Source: Acholoe squamosa
Taxonomy: Eukaryota > Annelida > Polychaeta > Phyllodocida > Polynoidae
Direction of reading: 5' to 3'
NCBI GenBank assembly: GCA_949317995.1
Contig: OX439038.1
Location: 66,055,576 to 66,119,575, forward strand
Length of the DNA stretch: 64,000 nucleotides
A program made the position numbers and the translations under genes. Under the pieces are notes generated by a model. That model saw only the letters and a program-made list of their open reading frames with translations, searched no databases and had not been told where the DNA came from. Numbering within the stretch: the stretch's first letter is position 1; every line of letters starts with the position of its first letter. This document shows positions 20,411 through 36,090 of the stretch, piece by piece.

Positions 20411-20414
<4 letters not shown>

Positions 20415-20774
20415 GGGGCCGGCATCATTGTATATATATTAGTGCCGTTCATCCGAGAGACGTGTTCGTGTGGTGCTTGTTCCTTCTATGCTAGCTAGGT
20501 GTCGCTTTGCGATACCTCGTTGGTACAAGAGGGGGCAGCACCATGCCTCGCGTCCAGCTCCTACTAAGGAGCCGGACGAGCGGCAGAAGGGGACTGGACA
20601 TGGTCCAGTCCAGACGCTAGTACTTTGTCATCAAAGAGATCAAATAAAGTCCTACCCGAGAGGTAGGGGTTTCTGGGGCTTTGCCCAACCCGAACTACTC
20701 GTGTTGTGTTGGTACATCTAGTGGTAAGCGAGCCAAAGAGCCACCCAACATATAAGTCAATACGAACCATTACA
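20411..20774 (+). repeat. 5' LTR of the Gypsy element
   Basis: 364 bp, TG...CA ends. A TATA-like tract (20430-20440) near the start and an AATAAA at 20643-20648 followed by a GTGTTGTGTTGG stretch at about 20700 fit U3/R/U5 organisation. Short frames across it are not genes. Confidence 0.95.
20643..20648 (+). promoter_or_regulatory. LTR poly(A) signal
   Basis: AATAAA within the LTR, followed about 50 nt later by GT-rich sequence. The functional copy in a transcript would be the identical one at 33128-33133 in the 3' LTR. Confidence 0.6.
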
Positions 20775-28112: not shown

Positions 28113-28628
28113 CTCAGTACACAACGAGCTGCTGCGTGTTGTCCGCCATAGGCAGGCAACATACGTTCCACGGCTAGAGATGTCGAACGCGCCCTCCCCG
28201 GGTGGCTGTATCCCGTGAGTGGCGGTCGGATTAACCGGTACATTCGCTTTGAAGCGTTGTATACACCGCCAAGCTCCAGACGATAGCACCCGGGTAGTAG
28301 GCCGCGTCTCACATGTCGAGTCGAATGTTGGTTCGGATCTAGTTCCCTAGGTGGCGCTGCTGGTGTGGCGGGAAAGCGCGGAACTAGGTCACCGGATAGC
28401 CATGGCGGGATCTCGCGAGACGAGAGGTCTGACGTCATACTGGTCATAACTAGAGCGGACTCGTGGTGGTTAGACGCCACCCGTTTTTGCTCTAGTTATT
28501 TGTCGGTGGTTATACAGCCTGTAGCTGTCGTGTTAGCCTAGCTAACCCAAAGCCTCTCTGTTGGACGAATCCTTCGGGAGGAGTCCAACAAAACTTGCCA
28601 ATTTATTTTGGAAGTCGGACCCGGTGCC
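28113..28628 (+). other. pol-ORF3 spacer with a UUCG-capped hairpin
   Basis: 516 nt spacer. At 28560-28589 the RNA would fold as a 7 bp GTTGGAC/GTCCAAC stem, a purine internal loop and a 3 bp TCC/GGA stem closed by a C(UUCG)G tetraloop, 40 nt upstream of the ORF3 ATG. It may help translation, splicing or packaging (inference). Minus-strand frames here are shadows. Confidence 0.5.
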
Positions 28629-31600
28629 ATGGCACAGGGAACGATTGACGCTGCGCGTCAAACTGCCAACATTCCGTTGGAACAAGACGAGGACCAGAAG
28701 GTCTCGTCTCGGGTCGAGGAATCTATGGATTCTTCGACAGAGGAGGCCGCCCGGACGCTCTCGGCTATGGCCGAGGCAACCGACCGGGAGAGAATGCCAC
28801 CTCCACCACCGCCACGCCCGGAGCGCCCGTCTACAACAGCCGCTTCGGGTAGCAAAGTGGATGTCCTGGACATTCCAATGTATCCTCCGGGATTCAGGAC
28901 TCAGATCAGACGTCTAGCACACGTTGATCGCCAGGAAGGTATCGTGTACACCTCCTGGGGTACGTACATCCCTATGCACGCCTCCATGTTCGGATGCGGG
29001 CCCATGGCGGTGGAAGAGGGCGTGCCCGAGCCCATACCAGATGATCTTAAGACTATGGTAATGGACTCGTGCAGTGACGAGCTGGCTGACAACATGCCAG
29101 TTTCTTGGCTCCGCAACTATCTAAAGTTGGCGGAGAATATGGCGACTAACGAGAATTTAGCTCGAGCCGTCTTGATCTCTGCGGGCATCATCCAGAAGGC
29201 CGCGGAGTTAAGGGAGTCCGAATCCGACATGGATACAGACTCCACAGTAACCTTGTCGTCGGTGGAAACCGACCGGGTCAAGCGATTGACCCGTAAACCT
29301 GCACCCAAGGGTCCTCTCACTGAGAGCGATCTGGAGGCTGAGGATGTCCGCATCGCCGTCGAGAGGTCCACAACCGAGACCGACCCAGCTGCCGACATCC
29401 CGGAGGCACCTGGCGAGATCTCGGAAGAGGACATCTCGCGCCAGCAGGCTGCTGTAGAGGCAAAGCGAGCCGAGCTTGCCAAGCAGCAGAAGGAGCTCAC
29501 CGCGGCTCGCCGGGCCCATCGCAAGCAGCAGGCCCAACGAAAATCTGAGATCTCTTCCGACTCTGACTCCCCGGTCAGCGGAAGGAGGAGCCCTCGGACA
29601 GTGGACAGGAGCCGACGCGAGTCGGATTCCAGTCCCGAAGTTCCGGCCCAACCGACTAAGGTTGTGCGCCGGAAGAAAAAGAATGGAGCGAAAGCGTCTC
29701 CGGCAGAGCCCACGCCCCCCACCAAGCCGAGGGGTAAGGGCAAACCGAAGACGCCCGCTCCCACTACTACAACCACCACGGTAGCCACCTCGGTTACTGC
29801 ATCTTCTGCAGCCAGCACGTCGGGTGCAAAGGCGAAGTCCCCTACCAAGGCTCCGACTAGTACTACCACCTCCAGCCGAGCCAGCCGTAGGGGAGCTAAC
29901 ATATACACGGACAGTGAGGAAAGCGAAAGCGATCCAGAGCTGCCCGAGTCTGCCAAATCTGATTTGGAGTCCGTGACAACGTGGGAAGAAACGACCACGG
30001 ATGTTCCCAAGGACGACAATCAGAAGTGGATGTGGAAGAATGCAGCCGAGGTGTTCAAGGAACGGACTCCCCGCTGCTTCGCGGACTGTGCTTACGACAC
30101 AGTCCACTATATGTGTCCGAGCGCCGTCAATAAGGACGGTGACAGCGATGACGAGGAGTGGATGAAGTCCGGCCCCTCGGATACGCCAGTAGGCAAGTTC
30201 TACCTGATTTGGATTGACCAGCTCAAGTCCAAATTAGGCTCAATCTACAGCTACAAGGCCCGGACGAAAGTCCAGTGGGCAATGACCCAATGGGGACCAA
30301 CCGGCAACCGCCGAAGGTGCCAGTTCGAGTCTTGCCAGCTGGCTCTCACGGGTGAGAAGGTGTTCGAGACGAAGCCCCGCTTCGCTCGGCACATCGTCGA
30401 GTACCATATGCATCACAAGCCTGTGATGATGTGTGTGCTCGGGGACCGCCCGAGTAAACATTGTGATGGCTTGTTCAGCACTCACCGGCGCCGAGACATG
30501 GCTCTGCATTTGCAGAAGGCCCATGGCATCGGCCTGGAGAAGACCAGGAAACGAGCCATCAAGTGCTTCAGCGAGCTCCTTGCTAATTGGTCCGCGCTGA
30601 GCATCAAAGAAGTGAAAGAGCAGGCATTCGAGACCGGATTCTGCTCGTGGAAGAGCGGCAACTTACTGATGTACTTCCAGACGAACTCCTCGTCCACGAA
30701 ATTCGGGATGCCCAGTGAGGTGCACCTGAAGGTGAAAAAGTGGCGAGGAGACGACAAGCGAGAGAAGGCCAAAGCCCACTCTAAAGGTCCAAACGGAGGC
30801 ACAGTCACGACTACTGCTTCCAAGAGGACCCGAGCAGACCGGTCCGTGAGCCCTTCGGGTGGCAAGGACCAGCCCAGACCAGCCAACCCAGCTGATCGTC
30901 GCGAGTCGGGACAACAAGTCTCGGCTCTAGAGATGCCTGGCAACCAGGCCCGCAGGTCGGGTAGCCAGGCGACCGCACCGGCGACTCCAGCCACCTCCAC
31001 ACCTGCACCCGCGGAACAACGCCCGGGCGAAGCCTCTGGCGGCCTGGATGATGGGGGCGAACTCTTCGCTCCCCCATCCGGGTATTCTACTTGGTGGGCT
31101 GGAGAGGGATCCTCCGGCAAGCGCCCCACGTACAGCGAGTACGCGGCGAAGTTCCCTTCAATGGGACCGGCTGGACCCGAGTCGCAGGTCCTTACCTCCT
31201 TGGGCCGGGCCAAAACCCGTGGTAGGGGCCGCGGTGGGCTGGAGTCCACCCGAGGCTCCCCGGGTGGTGGCCGAGGCCGAGGAGGCATTACGGTGGAGGG
31301 CCCGTCTGCCCCTCCAACAGGCACCCCGCCTGTCTCAGTGGAGGCCCCAGCGCCACCACCAGTGATAGTTCCACCGACGGGTCCTCGGGTACCCCTAATG
31401 GAACTGATCTCCGGTACCCTGTCAGGTCTTCAGGATCCGAATACGTTCGTCGACCACCGCGATGTCCGAACGGTTCAGATCCAGAATGACCTGATGGCAG
31501 AATGGCAGGCATTGCACCGCCAGAAGTCTGTTGACTACTGGCGTGTGATGACTGAAGCCACCGTCAATCTGGTCTACGAGATCCAGAGGCGGGAGGAAGA

Positions 31601-32138
31601 GAAAATAAGGGAGCTGGAAAGGAAGAAGGTCGAGGAAGCCCTCGAGTCCTGCCGGCGGAAACAGAAGGAAGCCGAAAAGCTTAAAGAGTTTCACGAAGCT
31701 GAAAACTCCAGATATATCCATCGATTTAAGGAGGCTGACCTCAAGTTTTTCCTGGCATTCGGGAAACATCTGGAGGAGTGGGACGGCTTACCGTCGTCTC
31801 TTATCTTCGTACCAGATATACCCCCGGATGCCCCGCCAGCCCCGGCTACTCCACCGGTTCTGGCCACTCCACCGGTCCCGGCTGCTCCGCCAGTTCCGGC
31901 AGCTCTCTTGCTCCCGCCCCCCACTTGGAACACCCGGGCTGTCCCAACTGCCACGGTTGCTGCACCAGCATCCGAGGCAATGGACAGTCCGTCCGCAGTG
32001 ATGAGGGCCTTGAGCTTGGGGAGCGAGACTCCCAGCGAGGCTTCAGCGGCGCTCTCTACGAGCAGCTGTAGCAGCTCGGCTCCATCTGCCTCAGTGGAGC
32101 CGGCTGAGAAGATGGACACAGATCCTGAAGATCTTTGA
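28629..32138 (+). CDS. third retrotransposon ORF: large zinc-finger protein, not an envelope
   Basis: 1169 residues from the first in-frame ATG (28629), which has a good context (GTGCCATGG). I do not recognise a named family. Order: short N-terminus with poly-Pro; a compact region at about 80-200 (DIPMYPPGFRTQIRRLAHVD onward); a long Ser/Glu/Lys/Pro/Thr-rich disordered region (about 200-450) with basic clusters; two C2H2-like fingers at about 562-597 (CQFESC ... HIVEYH) and 601-634 (CVLGDRPSKHC ... HLQKAH); a second disordered region with an RGG-like stretch RGRGRGG/GGGRGRGG (about 860-893); a charged coiled coil at about 981-1031; and a Pro/Ala-rich tail. No signal peptide or transmembrane segment is seen, so it is not Env. 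It may bind nucleic acid or chaperone the RNA, or guide integration (inference). Probably made from a spliced or internal-start mRNA. Confidence 0.9.
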   Translation: MAQGTIDAARQTANIPLEQDEDQKVSSRVEESMDSSTEEAARTLSAMAEATDRERMPPPPPPRPERPSTTAASGSKVDVLDIPMYPPGFRTQIRRLAHVDRQEGIVYTSWGTYIPMHASMFGCGPMAVEEGVPEPIPDDLKTMVMDSCSDELADNMPVSWLRNYLKLAENMATNENLARAVLISAGIIQKAAELRESESDMDTDSTVTLSSVETDRVKRLTRKPAPKGPLTESDLEAEDVRIAVERSTTETDPAADIPEAPGEISEEDISRQQAAVEAKRAELAKQQKELTAARRAHRKQQAQRKSEISSDSDSPVSGRRSPRTVDRSRRESDSSPEVPAQPTKVVRRKKKNGAKASPAEPTPPTKPRGKGKPKTPAPTTTTTTVATSVTASSAASTSGAKAKSPTKAPTSTTTSSRASRRGANIYTDSEESESDPELPESAKSDLESVTTWEETTTDVPKDDNQKWMWKNAAEVFKERTPRCFADCAYDTVHYMCPSAVNKDGDSDDEEWMKSGPSDTPVGKFYLIWIDQLKSKLGSIYSYKARTKVQWAMTQWGPTGNRRRCQFESCQLALTGEKVFETKPRFARHIVEYHMHHKPVMMCVLGDRPSKHCDGLFSTHRRRDMALHLQKAHGIGLEKTRKRAIKCFSELLANWSALSIKEVKEQAFETGFCSWKSGNLLMYFQTNSSSTKFGMPSEVHLKVKKWRGDDKREKAKAHSKGPNGGTVTTTASKRTRADRSVSPSGGKDQPRPANPADRRESGQQVSALEMPGNQARRSGSQATAPATPATSTPAPAEQRPGEASGGLDDGGELFAPPSGYSTWWAGEGSSGKRPTYSEYAAKFPSMGPAGPESQVLTSLGRAKTRGRGRGGLESTRGSPGGGRGRGGITVEGPSAPPTGTPPVSVEAPAPPPVIVPPTGPRVPLMELISGTLSGLQDPNTFVDHRDVRTVQIQNDLMAEWQALHRQKSVDYWRVMTEATVNLVYEIQRREEEKIRELERKKVEEALESCRRKQKEAEKLKEFHEAENSRYIHRFKEADLKFFLAFGKHLEEWDGLPSSLIFVPDIPPDAPPAPATPPVLATPPVPAAPPVPAALLLPPPTWNTRAVPTATVAAPASEAMDSPSAVMRALSLGSETPSEASAALSTSSCSSSAPSASVEPAEKMDTDPEDL

Positions 32139-32895: not shown

Positions 32896-33259
32896 TGTAG
32901 GGGCCGGCATCATTGTATATATATTAGTGCTGTTCATCCGAGAGACGTGTTCGTGTGGTGCTTGTTCCTTCTATGCTAGCTAGGTGTCGCTTTGCGATAC
33001 CTCGTTGGTACAAGAGGGGGCAGCACCATGCCTCGCGTCCAGCTCCTACTAAGGAGCCGGACGAGCGGCAGAAGGGGACTGGACATGGTCCAGTCCAGAC
33101 GCTAGTACTTTGTCATCAAAGAGATCAAATAAAGTCCTACCCGAGAGGTAGGGGTTTCTGGGGCTTTGCCCAACCCGAACTACTCGTGTTGTGTTGGTAC
33201 ATCTAGTGGTAAGCGAGCCAAAGAGCCACCCAACATATAAGTCAATACGAACCATTACA
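32896..33259 (+). repeat. 3' LTR of the Gypsy element
   Basis: 364 bp, same length as the 5' LTR, with one difference seen (GTGCTGTTC here, GTGCCGTTC in the 5' copy). Contains the AATAAA at 33128-33133 that would end transcripts. Confidence 0.95.
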
Positions 33260-34333: not shown

Positions 34334-34938
34334 CATGTCAGAAAGTATACATTTTGCCCTTTTGACTGCTTGGAATCCCAGGTCAAACAGACCAGTGGTT
34401 GCCGAGATATCACATTTTAATGCAAGTTGCACCATCAAGATTTACAGTACTTCTCTGATTTCTAAGAATGCTGAAGAGCCTTATGACCAGTTGCTCTTAG
34501 TTGGGAGTGGATGCAAATTGAAGTTAGTGGTGTCGACTACCAGCCTGACTAATGTAAACATCAAATGGAAGAGAATGCCAATCCTGAGAACTTCTTTTTT
34601 TAACTTTTTGTTATTGCCTTTTAGACTGGAATGGTACACCCTGGAAAAAGACAGGGTTGATTGCCTTGTCCAATATGGAACCTGAATTTGAGTGACCTTT
34701 GATCTCTGCTCAAGGTCATTCAATGTCAGCTGTTGTGATATCAGCCAGAAGCACTGCCTTGACCTATTGCTTGACTACAAGTTGCAAACATATGAAAGAG
34801 ATTCATCAAAAGCTCTTTGAATGGTGGCCTCTGGCCCTAACAGGCCTTTAGGGGTGTTGAAGCCTGAATTCCGGCTTGTGGGGATGTTAGAGTTAAGAGT
34901 TATCGGATTATCTCAATAAACTATTGTAAGATTACTGC
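34334..34938. other. no gene recognised
   Basis: A 141-codon plus-strand frame (34260-34685) begins inside the tandem repeat and shows no recognisable domain. It could be a chance frame or an old element. Confidence 0.4.
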
Positions 34939-35092
34939 TGTAGGGGTTCGTTCCCCCGTCGGGTGCGCAGAGCCTTCAGAGGGACTGTTCACTTGGTTGT
35001 GTCACTCCCCCTATGTATACCATACCGATCCAGGGTAGTTGGAAGGTGGAAATGTCAGTGGGGCCGTGTTGGTGACAGGGTATGTCAGGCCA

Positions 35093-35163
35093 GGGGATGT
35101 AGCTCAGTGGTAGAGCGCTCGACTTGCAAGCAAGAGACCCGGGTTCGAATCCCGGTGTCTCCA
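35093..35163 (+). tRNA. tRNA-Ala(UGC)-like gene inside the 5' LTR
   Basis: 71 nt cloverleaf. Acceptor GGGGATG/TGTCTCC pairs fully with wobbles, including G3:U70 (35095:35160), the main alanine identity element. D arm GCTC/GAGC, anticodon loop CTTGCAA with anticodon TGC (35125-35127), 4 nt variable loop, T arm CCGGG/CCCGG with TTCGAAT, discriminator A, no encoded CCA. The anticodon stem CTCGA/GCAAG has two mismatches (C:A and A:G). A box TAGCTCAGTGG (35100-35110) and B box GGTTCGAATCC (35142-35152) match consensus. It may be a real Pol III gene or a tRNA-like domain of the element RNA; decoding ability is doubtful in this copy. Confidence 0.85.
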
Positions 35164-35169
35164 GAGACG

Positions 35170-35173
35170 TTTT
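35170..35173 (+). terminator. Pol III terminator after the LTR tRNA
   Basis: TTTT lies 7 nt beyond the tRNA end and inside the LTR, before the PBS. A Pol III transcript would stop here, giving a primer-sized RNA and not a genomic RNA. Confidence 0.6.
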
Positions 35174-35188
35174 CACTGACCACTACAG

Positions 35189-35202
35189 TGGTGGAGACAC
35201 CG
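35189..35202 (+). promoter_or_regulatory. TRIM primer-binding site, complementary to the element's own tRNA
   Basis: TGGTGGAGACACCG equals the reverse complement of CGGTGTCTCCA (35153-35163) plus CCA. It starts one base after the LTR. It is flanked by GACCACT (35178-35184) and AGTGGTC (35203-35209), which could pair and display it in a loop. Confidence 0.92.
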
Positions 35203-35388
35203 AGTGGTCCTGCCTCGCATGGGGGACCTTTAGAGAGCTCGGTACCTGGGCCGGTATGGTATAGACAAGCGCTTCAACTTGCTAGTGCTGAGGGACTTGG
35301 AAACAGATGGGCTGTGTGTGACTCAGTACTGGTACCGTTCAGACTGGACTGGAGGACCGGTTCTGGCAGGATACGGTTGAAGCTGGTT
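35203..35388 (+). other. TRIM internal region, non-coding
   Basis: About 186 nt between PBS and PPT with no ORF start-to-stop of interest. It presumably holds the packaging signal if the element is mobilised in trans (inference). Confidence 0.6.
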
Positions 35389-35396
35389 GGGAGGAG
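35389..35396 (+). promoter_or_regulatory. TRIM polypurine tract
   Basis: GGGAGGAG is pure purine and abuts the TG of the second LTR, the canonical site for plus-strand priming. Confidence 0.85.
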
Positions 35397-35645
35397 TGTA
35401 GGGGTTCGTTCCCCCGTCGGGTGCGCAGAGCCTTCAGAGGGACTGTTCACTTGGTTGTGTCACTCCCCCTATGTATACCATACCGATCCAGGGTAGTTGG
35501 AAGGTGGAAATGTCAGTGGGGCCGTGTTGGTGACAGGGTATGTCAGGCCAGGGGATGTAGCTCAGTGGTAGAGCGCTCGACTTGCAAACGAGAGACCCGG
35601 GTTCGAATCCCGGTGTCTCCAGAGACGTTTTCACTGACCACTACA
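35397..35645 (+). repeat. 3' LTR of the TRIM
   Basis: 249 bp copy of the 5' LTR with two differences, followed by the CTGC target duplication. Confidence 0.95.
35551..35621 (+). tRNA. tRNA-Ala(UGC)-like gene inside the 3' LTR
   Basis: Same as the 5' copy, but the anticodon stem reads CTCGA/ACGAG, giving four paired positions and one A:A mismatch next to the loop, so this copy folds better. Anticodon TGC is at 35583-35585 and G3:U70 is kept. A TTTT follows at 35628-35631. Confidence 0.87.
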
Positions 35646-35934
35646 CTGCTATAACTTATGAAAAAGGCACTCTTCTATTATTATATAACTATGGCGATGT
35701 AGCAAATATCTTAAGGTCAAATCCAACTATGCAAAAGAAGTGGTTCTCAAATGTTTGTGAATTTGGATATTGGCAGCTCTAGAATCATGTCAATTTATTA
35801 AATCCCATGGATTATCCTATTCTGCCTAGATCACACAATAGCTAATATTTGACAGCACCTCTCTAGTTTGTAACAGTTAAAGTCTTTAATCTGTCGGGAG
35901 TTACACTGAAAATGTGGGCCTCTATGAAGGTGAT
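35646..35934. other. no gene seen
   Basis: Begins with the CTGC target duplication. Otherwise non-coding. Confidence 0.5.
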
Positions 35935-36090
35935 CAGAATTGATGACTTAAGGTCCTCTTTCCATCTTCATGACCTGAGGTGATCATGTTGATCACCTTG
36001 GGTCATCATTTTGATCATCCAAGCTCACCTTGGGTCATCAAGGTGATCACCCAAGGTGATCATGTTGATCACCTTGGGACATCACTTTCT
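35935..36090. repeat. palindrome cluster rich in GGTGATCATGTTGATCACC
   Basis: The 19 bp palindrome occurs twice (near 35976 and 36055), with CACCTTGGGTCATCA and its complement between them. The ATGACTTAAGGTC motif at its left end is shared with the cluster at 14832-14966. Confidence 0.8.

Follow-up and report, generated by a model that had tools for sequence, protein, structure and literature searches.

The window analysed here, a stretch of 64,000 nucleotides of the Acholoe squamosa genome, carries a 707-bp element (34939-35645) made of two long terminal repeats (LTRs) and a short internal region (Table 1). The LTRs are 99.2% identical and have the ends TGTAGG...CTACA. Two stop-to-stop frames of 188 aa and 110 aa span the element, and no Pfam match was found in either of them. 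A sequence-only reading of this DNA had described the LTRs, the CTGC target duplication, a tRNA in both LTRs and a primer-binding site (PBS), all of which we found as stated by sequence comparison, ARAGORN and Rfam. The purine tract that it also reported is present before the 3′ LTR but is only 8 nt long. Two further repeats were noted: a 19-nt inverted match (89%) between the LTR (35016-35034) and the internal region (35245-35263), with a weaker counterpart in family B described below, and an adjoining imperfect inverted repeat with 54-nt arms (35970-36082), probably an unrelated small DNA repeat.

Table 1. Layout of the element, in window positions
Feature	Position	Strand	Basis or remark
Target-site duplication CTGC, left copy	34935..34938	.	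sequence
5′ LTR, 249 bp	34939..35187	+	sequence, repeat comparison
tRNA-Ala(UGC)-like gene, 5′ LTR	35093..35163	+	ARAGORN, Rfam; G3:U70
A box TAGCTCAGTGG of 5′ LTR tRNA	35100..35110	+	sequence; box consensus
B box GGTTCGAATCC of 5′ LTR tRNA	35142..35152	+	sequence; box consensus
TTTT, likely Pol III terminator, 5′ LTR	35170..35173	+	7 nt 3′ of tRNA
Spacer G between 5′ LTR and PBS	35188		1 base
PBS TGGTGGAGACACCG, 14 nt	35189..35202	+	complement of own tRNA 3′ end (11 nt) + CCA
Internal region, 209 bp	35188..35396	+	without Pfam match
Polypurine tract GGGAGGAG, 8 nt	35389..35396	+	sequence
3′ LTR, 249 bp	35397..35645	+	2 differences from 5′ LTR
tRNA-Ala(UGC)-like gene, 3′ LTR	35551..35621	+	ARAGORN, Rfam
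TTTT, likely Pol III terminator, 3′ LTR	35628..35631	+
Target-site duplication CTGC, right copy	35646..35649	.	sequence

Both LTR genes are called tRNA-Ala(tgc) by ARAGORN and score 63.2 and 69.2 bits against Rfam RF00005, for a gathering score of 29; no 5S rRNA was matched in the element by Rfam up to an E-value of 0.1, only tRNA. While the Ala(UGC)-like identity proposed from the sequence alone holds for both LTRs, the anticodon stem is imperfect: pairing in the common family A tRNA is complete in every stem but for 31-39, and the 5′ LTR tRNA has one anticodon-stem mismatch more than the 3′ LTR copy. Folded by minimum free energy, the bare 71-mer fails to adopt the cloverleaf, and its energy is only mildly better than that of shuffled sequences (z about -1.6). 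The gene ends in ..CGGTGTCTCCA and runs straight into GAGACGTTTT, so that CCA is not encoded; with CCA added, the tail would read ..GGTGTCTCCACCA. On the + strand of the element TTTT occurs only 3′ of each tRNA, and likewise only after the tRNA in family B. The absence of TTTT elsewhere is not significant (probability of none 0.60 and 0.65, dinucleotide shuffle) and thus lends weak support to Pol III read-through. We also considered that overrun of plus-strand synthesis had brought the tRNA into the LTR, and rejected this on the reasoning that such a copy would lie antisense, whereas the tRNA lies in sense.

Dispersed copies and two families

The sequence-only reading had called for a genome search with the LTR and for a check of the target duplications. 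In the 1.48 Gb searched (63 contigs), the LTR and internal-region queries gave 2971 and 2058 first-look candidates, respectively, which are not to be read as copy counts. Scoring of 40 LTR candidates yielded 41 matches at 98-100%, so that near-identical copies are dispersed over many contigs. For the 14-nt PBS word there are 267 occurrences in 1.48 Gb, compared with 10 for the reversed-word control. At loci L001-L090, an exact 4-bp duplication, which has a chance of 1 in 256 per copy, flanks 24 of the 35 full copies of the family found in the window (family A) and 15 of the 24 full copies of a second family (family B), LTR or internal matches below 90% length being omitted from this count. The two LTRs are identical in 6/35 full A copies and 6/24 full B copies, which indicates recent transposition; since these loci were picked by similarity, young copies are over-represented among them.

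That the arrangement in the window arose by local tandem duplication or by chance, and is not a mobile element, is extremely improbable. Tandem arrays of the unit do occur elsewhere (C10:55981469-55985814), but the copies on many contigs, the 4-bp duplications in both families and the identical LTR pairs all speak against such an origin, and dispersed copies with their own duplications rule out local tandem duplication. The C10 array itself is built of a 978-bp unit that joins internal region A to an LTR-B-like part.

Family B has an LTR of 252 bp and an internal region of 269 bp (L013:264-515). It has in common with family A the LTR ends, the tRNA region, a 51-bp LTR block, a 41-bp internal patch, the PBS and the purine tract, with 91% identity between the two families over the final 22 nt of the internal region; the rest of the LTR and internal sequences does not align. 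Positions 26-86 of LTR B (L013:264-515) match the beginning of internal region A at 84% identity and include a PBS-like sequence of the type called F below, a trace of an ancestral rearrangement. The family B tRNA (L013:420-491 and other B copies) combines a CGA (Ser) anticodon with G3:U70, the identity pair of alanine, so that serine codons would be misread if this tRNA were charged. A further large family has the tail CGGTTTCTCCA and the trailer AA (e.g. C1:7744308 and C1:7744717), and its members are often paired at about 410-740 bp among the first 100 places listed.

Fit of the primer-binding site to element and host tRNAs

The PBS TGGTGGAGACACCG is the exact complement of the last 11 bases of the element's own tRNA plus CCA (14/14), as had been claimed from the sequence alone. 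Past these 14 nt the usual PBS reads AG where the tRNA has GG, the usual form being 14 nt + AGT, unlike the 18-nt PBS of retroviruses. The match is found well beyond the window. When 137 tRNA tails were taken, 62 had a PBS-like site behind them, and these were complementary over 14 nt exactly in 45 cases, with a one-base difference in 11 and with larger differences in 6; the remaining 75 are 3′ LTRs, broken copies and non-tRNA matches. Among distinct triples of 5′ tRNA, PBS and 3′ tRNA, the 5′ tail and the PBS are exactly complementary in 60/73. The sequence-only reading had also asked whether tRNA and PBS are conserved across copies. In 20 places with the family A PBS (PBS-A), taken in the list order of PBS-word matches minus those already met by the LTR and internal queries, the local tail is exact in 12, differs by one mismatch in four, by two in two and by three in one, and is rearranged in one. 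ARAGORN called a tRNA in 18 of these 20 places, 15 of them Ala. Swapped elements, which count against the reading proposed below, are also present (1+1).

The PBS and the tRNA tail have changed together. In family B the tRNA ends in CGGTTTCTCCA and the PBS is TGGTGGAGAAACCG, again fitting its own tRNA. Altogether, PBS position 10 and tRNA position 67 are found in the states C/G, A/T and T/A in three subfamilies, whose matched tails are CGGTGTCTCCA (A), CGGTTTCTCCA (B) and CGGTATCTCCA (F). In the acceptor stems of A and B, base 6 still pairs with base 67 (T-G and A-T, respectively). A search for PBSs with G or T at position 10 beside CTACA gave 17 places (control 0), of which 15 read GATACC, two GAGACC and none GATGCC, the form that would fit host tRNA-Ala. 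We inspected 11 of the 17 (9 GATACC, 2 GAGACC). All nine GATACC copies, which represent state F, have A at tRNA position 67 (TATCT); these copies are old, and over 14 nt two of the nine match fully, three have one mismatch, two have two and two have a mutated tail end. Both GAGACC copies read TTTCTCC and have a wobble instead of a standard pair.

Over all classes, the varying position is complementary in 76 of 85 distinct junctions, a set restricted to those fitting the search expression, with identical sequences counted once, from which L123, L111, L112 and others may drop out. The nine non-complementary junctions include L103, L105, L114 and L121, and L105 combines a host-like tail, GGCATCTCCA, with PBS-A. 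Fisher's test on the co-change (p 2.3e-9) ignores the kinship of the copies and is not counted as evidence. Because the copies are related, the 76 junctions reflect about two or three independent events. As just one PBS position varies between families, we estimate from these comparisons about two independent co-changes, or three if the ancestor was host tRNA-Ala.

Host tRNA-Ala provides the comparison for the PBS. A host-type tRNA-Ala pattern matched 92 places (control 0), 74 of them in one tandem cluster (C15:5088330-5141531); among the 92 is one apparent LTR-B copy. As read by eye, 84/92 end in GGCATCTCCA, which has two mismatches to PBS-A, and the tail GGTGTCTCCA was found in none of the 92. 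Duplex energies follow the same order: on PBS-A, -29.2 kcal/mol for the A tail and -21.1 to -25.3 kcal/mol for host Ala tails, and on the family B PBS, -26.7 kcal/mol for the B tail and -20.8 to -22.7 kcal/mol for host Ala tails. A-type tails not followed by G were found in 21 places (control 2), a search that cannot show a host gene whose A tail is followed by G. No host gene was found among the eight of these that were inspected (L091, L092, L113-L118), all LTR-derived. The B tail gave 874 places (control 0), the first 100 listed mostly resembling the AA-trailer family, and is uninformative on host genes. As judged by base pairing and duplex energy, the PBS fits the element's own tRNA better than the host tRNA-Ala genes found, tRNA-Ala being the one host isotype compared.

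A putative self-priming cycle and its alternatives

We propose the following cycle. Pol III would read the tRNA from its A and B boxes and would often stop at the single TTTT. Host enzymes would then trim the transcript at the discriminator base and add CCA; this addition is proposed because the PBS starts with TGG, the complement of the CCA that the LTR tRNA genes do not encode. The CCA-tailed tRNA, given its match to the PBS, could anneal one base behind the LTR and prime minus-strand DNA. Since the new PBS can inherit the sequence of its primer in each cycle, as is established for HIV/SIV (PMC4549124), primer gene and PBS would stay matched while the tRNA drifts, and the three matched tRNA/PBS states support such drift in register. 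Genomic RNA would come from read-through past the weak terminator or from Pol II.

Reverse transcriptase and integrase would presumably be supplied by a Gypsy-type element, as suggested by the 4-bp duplications and by LTR ends held in common with a Gypsy. One Gypsy sits in the window itself, 1.7 kb upstream of the small element; its open frames are long, and its LTRs (20411-20774 and 32896-33259; 364 bp each) show one difference between them. These LTRs begin with the same eight bases as those of the small element, TGTAGGGG, and the spacer is again 1 nt long, but the PBS, TGGTGCCGTGACC, differs and is one that we take to be tRNA-His-like. The third frame of this Gypsy (28542-32138, 1198 aa) gave no Pfam match. 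As a helper it is unproven, its PBS being another one.

A few copies may preserve traces of priming. The PBS of L016, TGGTGGAGACACCGGGAT, is an 18-nt complement of its own CCA-tailed tRNA and ends at position 59, just before A58 (the 18-nt converted PBS form is TGGTGGAGANACCGGG). Plus-strand copying is normally stopped by m1A58, and 18 nt is the length expected of such a stop. L016 is a single copy with no clean target duplication, and one substitution and one insertion would also yield its PBS. In L091 and L092 the LTR end is joined to a longer complement of the CCA-tailed tRNA, which in L091 continues into the part of the LTR that precedes the tRNA; L112 resembles them but bears signs of template switching as well. 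We do not take these three copies to prove primer read-through, given that template switching would account for them too, and regard them as no more than compatible with priming.

Altogether, we consider it likely, on the strength of these sequence comparisons, that the element's own tRNA primes its reverse transcription. Three observations support the claim, already made by the sequence-only reading, that the element supplies its own primer: a PBS match that is exact and extends to the CCA, the co-change in three subfamilies and the poorer fit of the host tRNA-Ala genes found. The further step taken by that reading, freedom from the host tRNA pool, is at most a possibility, since host tRNA-Ala might anneal despite its two mismatches.

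Small non-coding LTR elements (TRIMs) with a tRNA in the LTR are known as Helenus in fungi, animals and plants, with families in bivalves, fish and wasp, according to the survey by Kojima (2024; PMC10886601), the one on such TRIMs that we found. It reports that complementarity between LTR tRNA and PBS was sought and none found, and concludes that the tRNA does not prime. Our element could likewise be an ordinary Helenus, whose LTR tRNA is a Pol III promoter only, a host tRNA serving the PBS and the match being due to coincidence or shared descent. This is in line with the result for the surveyed families and with the tRNA-Ala-like character of both the LTR tRNA and the PBS, to which host tRNA-Ala can pair imperfectly; moreover, Helenus families are numerous enough that a single agreement of isotype by chance would be no surprise. 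We nevertheless think it unlikely: of the host tRNA-Ala genes found, none suits the PBS as well as the element tRNA does, PBS and element tRNA have changed together in three families, and no PBS among the 17 that have G or T at position 10 fits host tRNA-Ala. A different route to self-priming would act in cis, the tRNA part of the genomic RNA being cut at its 3′ end, given CCA and put to use as a primer on the PBS of that RNA itself or of a sister molecule; it would be somewhat like that of Tf1, but with tRNA processing enzymes. Tail and PBS do lie about 25 nt apart on the same strand, and the junctions of L091 and L092, the former extending upstream of the tRNA, are what such a route could leave. 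The TTTT directly 3′ of the tRNA favours a separate short transcript, however, and the junctions of L091, L092 and L112 are explicable by template switching between the PBS and the inverted tRNA tail, which have 11 nt in common, L112 displaying a switch in the opposite direction. Priming in cis thus seems quite improbable to us.

Besides the putative primer function, the tRNA carries an 8-base palindrome in its anticodon loop: CTTGCAAG in A and most F copies, CTTCGAAG in B, CTTATAAG in L103 and CCTGCAGG in L122. These differ between families yet remain palindromic, that of B sitting one base off the register of A. Of 133 tRNA-like sequences fitting the frame CTTNNAAG, a frame that itself selects for part of the palindrome, all except 3 have GC, CG or AT at the palindrome centre; 127 of the 133 fall into the two most frequent loop types, with the tails proper to these or close variants. 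The palindromes resemble the kissing loop of retroviruses and are a possible RNA dimerisation signal. More tentatively, and with somewhat less than even confidence, we suggest that a TRIM lineage turned the tRNA of its Pol III promoter into a dedicated primer, with a lock-and-key PBS and palindromes that let the RNAs kiss. If true, one tRNA fold would be promoter, primer and dimerisation signal at once.

Comparison with known elements

Retroelements primed by tRNA are generally taken to borrow the primer from their host. One that encodes its primer could avoid competing for host tRNA, and the presence in one genome of at least three subfamilies with different matched tRNA-PBS pairs would make it a testable system for the co-evolution of primer and PBS. 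The element also serves as a warning: of the tRNA-like genes in such a genome, many hundreds are part of mobile elements. Among known systems, Tf1 primes with the 5′ end of its own mRNA and uses no CCA-ended tRNA, and 5S rRNA is not a CCA-ended primer either. With Tf1-type self-priming elements, which are named in PMC6934838, our element would have in common a primer that comes from the element and not from a host tRNA. The PBS variants of HIV/SIV (tRNA-Lys3/Lys5; PMC4549124) likewise record the priming tRNA, but those primers are host tRNAs and are not virus-encoded. Cassandra and Ajax (TRIMp3 group) also place a small-RNA gene with a Pol III promoter inside a TRIM LTR, 5S rRNA in their case and tRNA in ours, and the PBS of Ajax fits tRNA-Leu (PMC10886601). 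The biv-TRIM of bivalves is, like our element, an animal TRIM with two terminal repeats, but one for which PMC6934838 reports no identifiable canonical PBS.

Closest among the known systems are the Helenus elements. As described in PMC10886601, these are short LTR elements without proteins, about 0.3-1.3 kb in total, a range that includes our 707 bp; they carry a tRNA-derived A/B-box sequence in the LTRs and a PBS and a polypurine tract at the ends of the internal region, and in animals they have 4-bp target duplications like those counted here. The sequence-only reading, which knew of no described equivalent, must therefore be corrected as to the class, since TRIMs with a tRNA in the LTR are known; it stands as to the match, the same paper reporting no tRNA/PBS complementarity. 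We found no description of an element with a self-matched tRNA and PBS in the open-licence PMC literature. While the class is known, the new point is the self-matched PBS: the PBS reported for Helenus is not complementary to the LTR tRNA, whereas here the two match exactly and have changed together.
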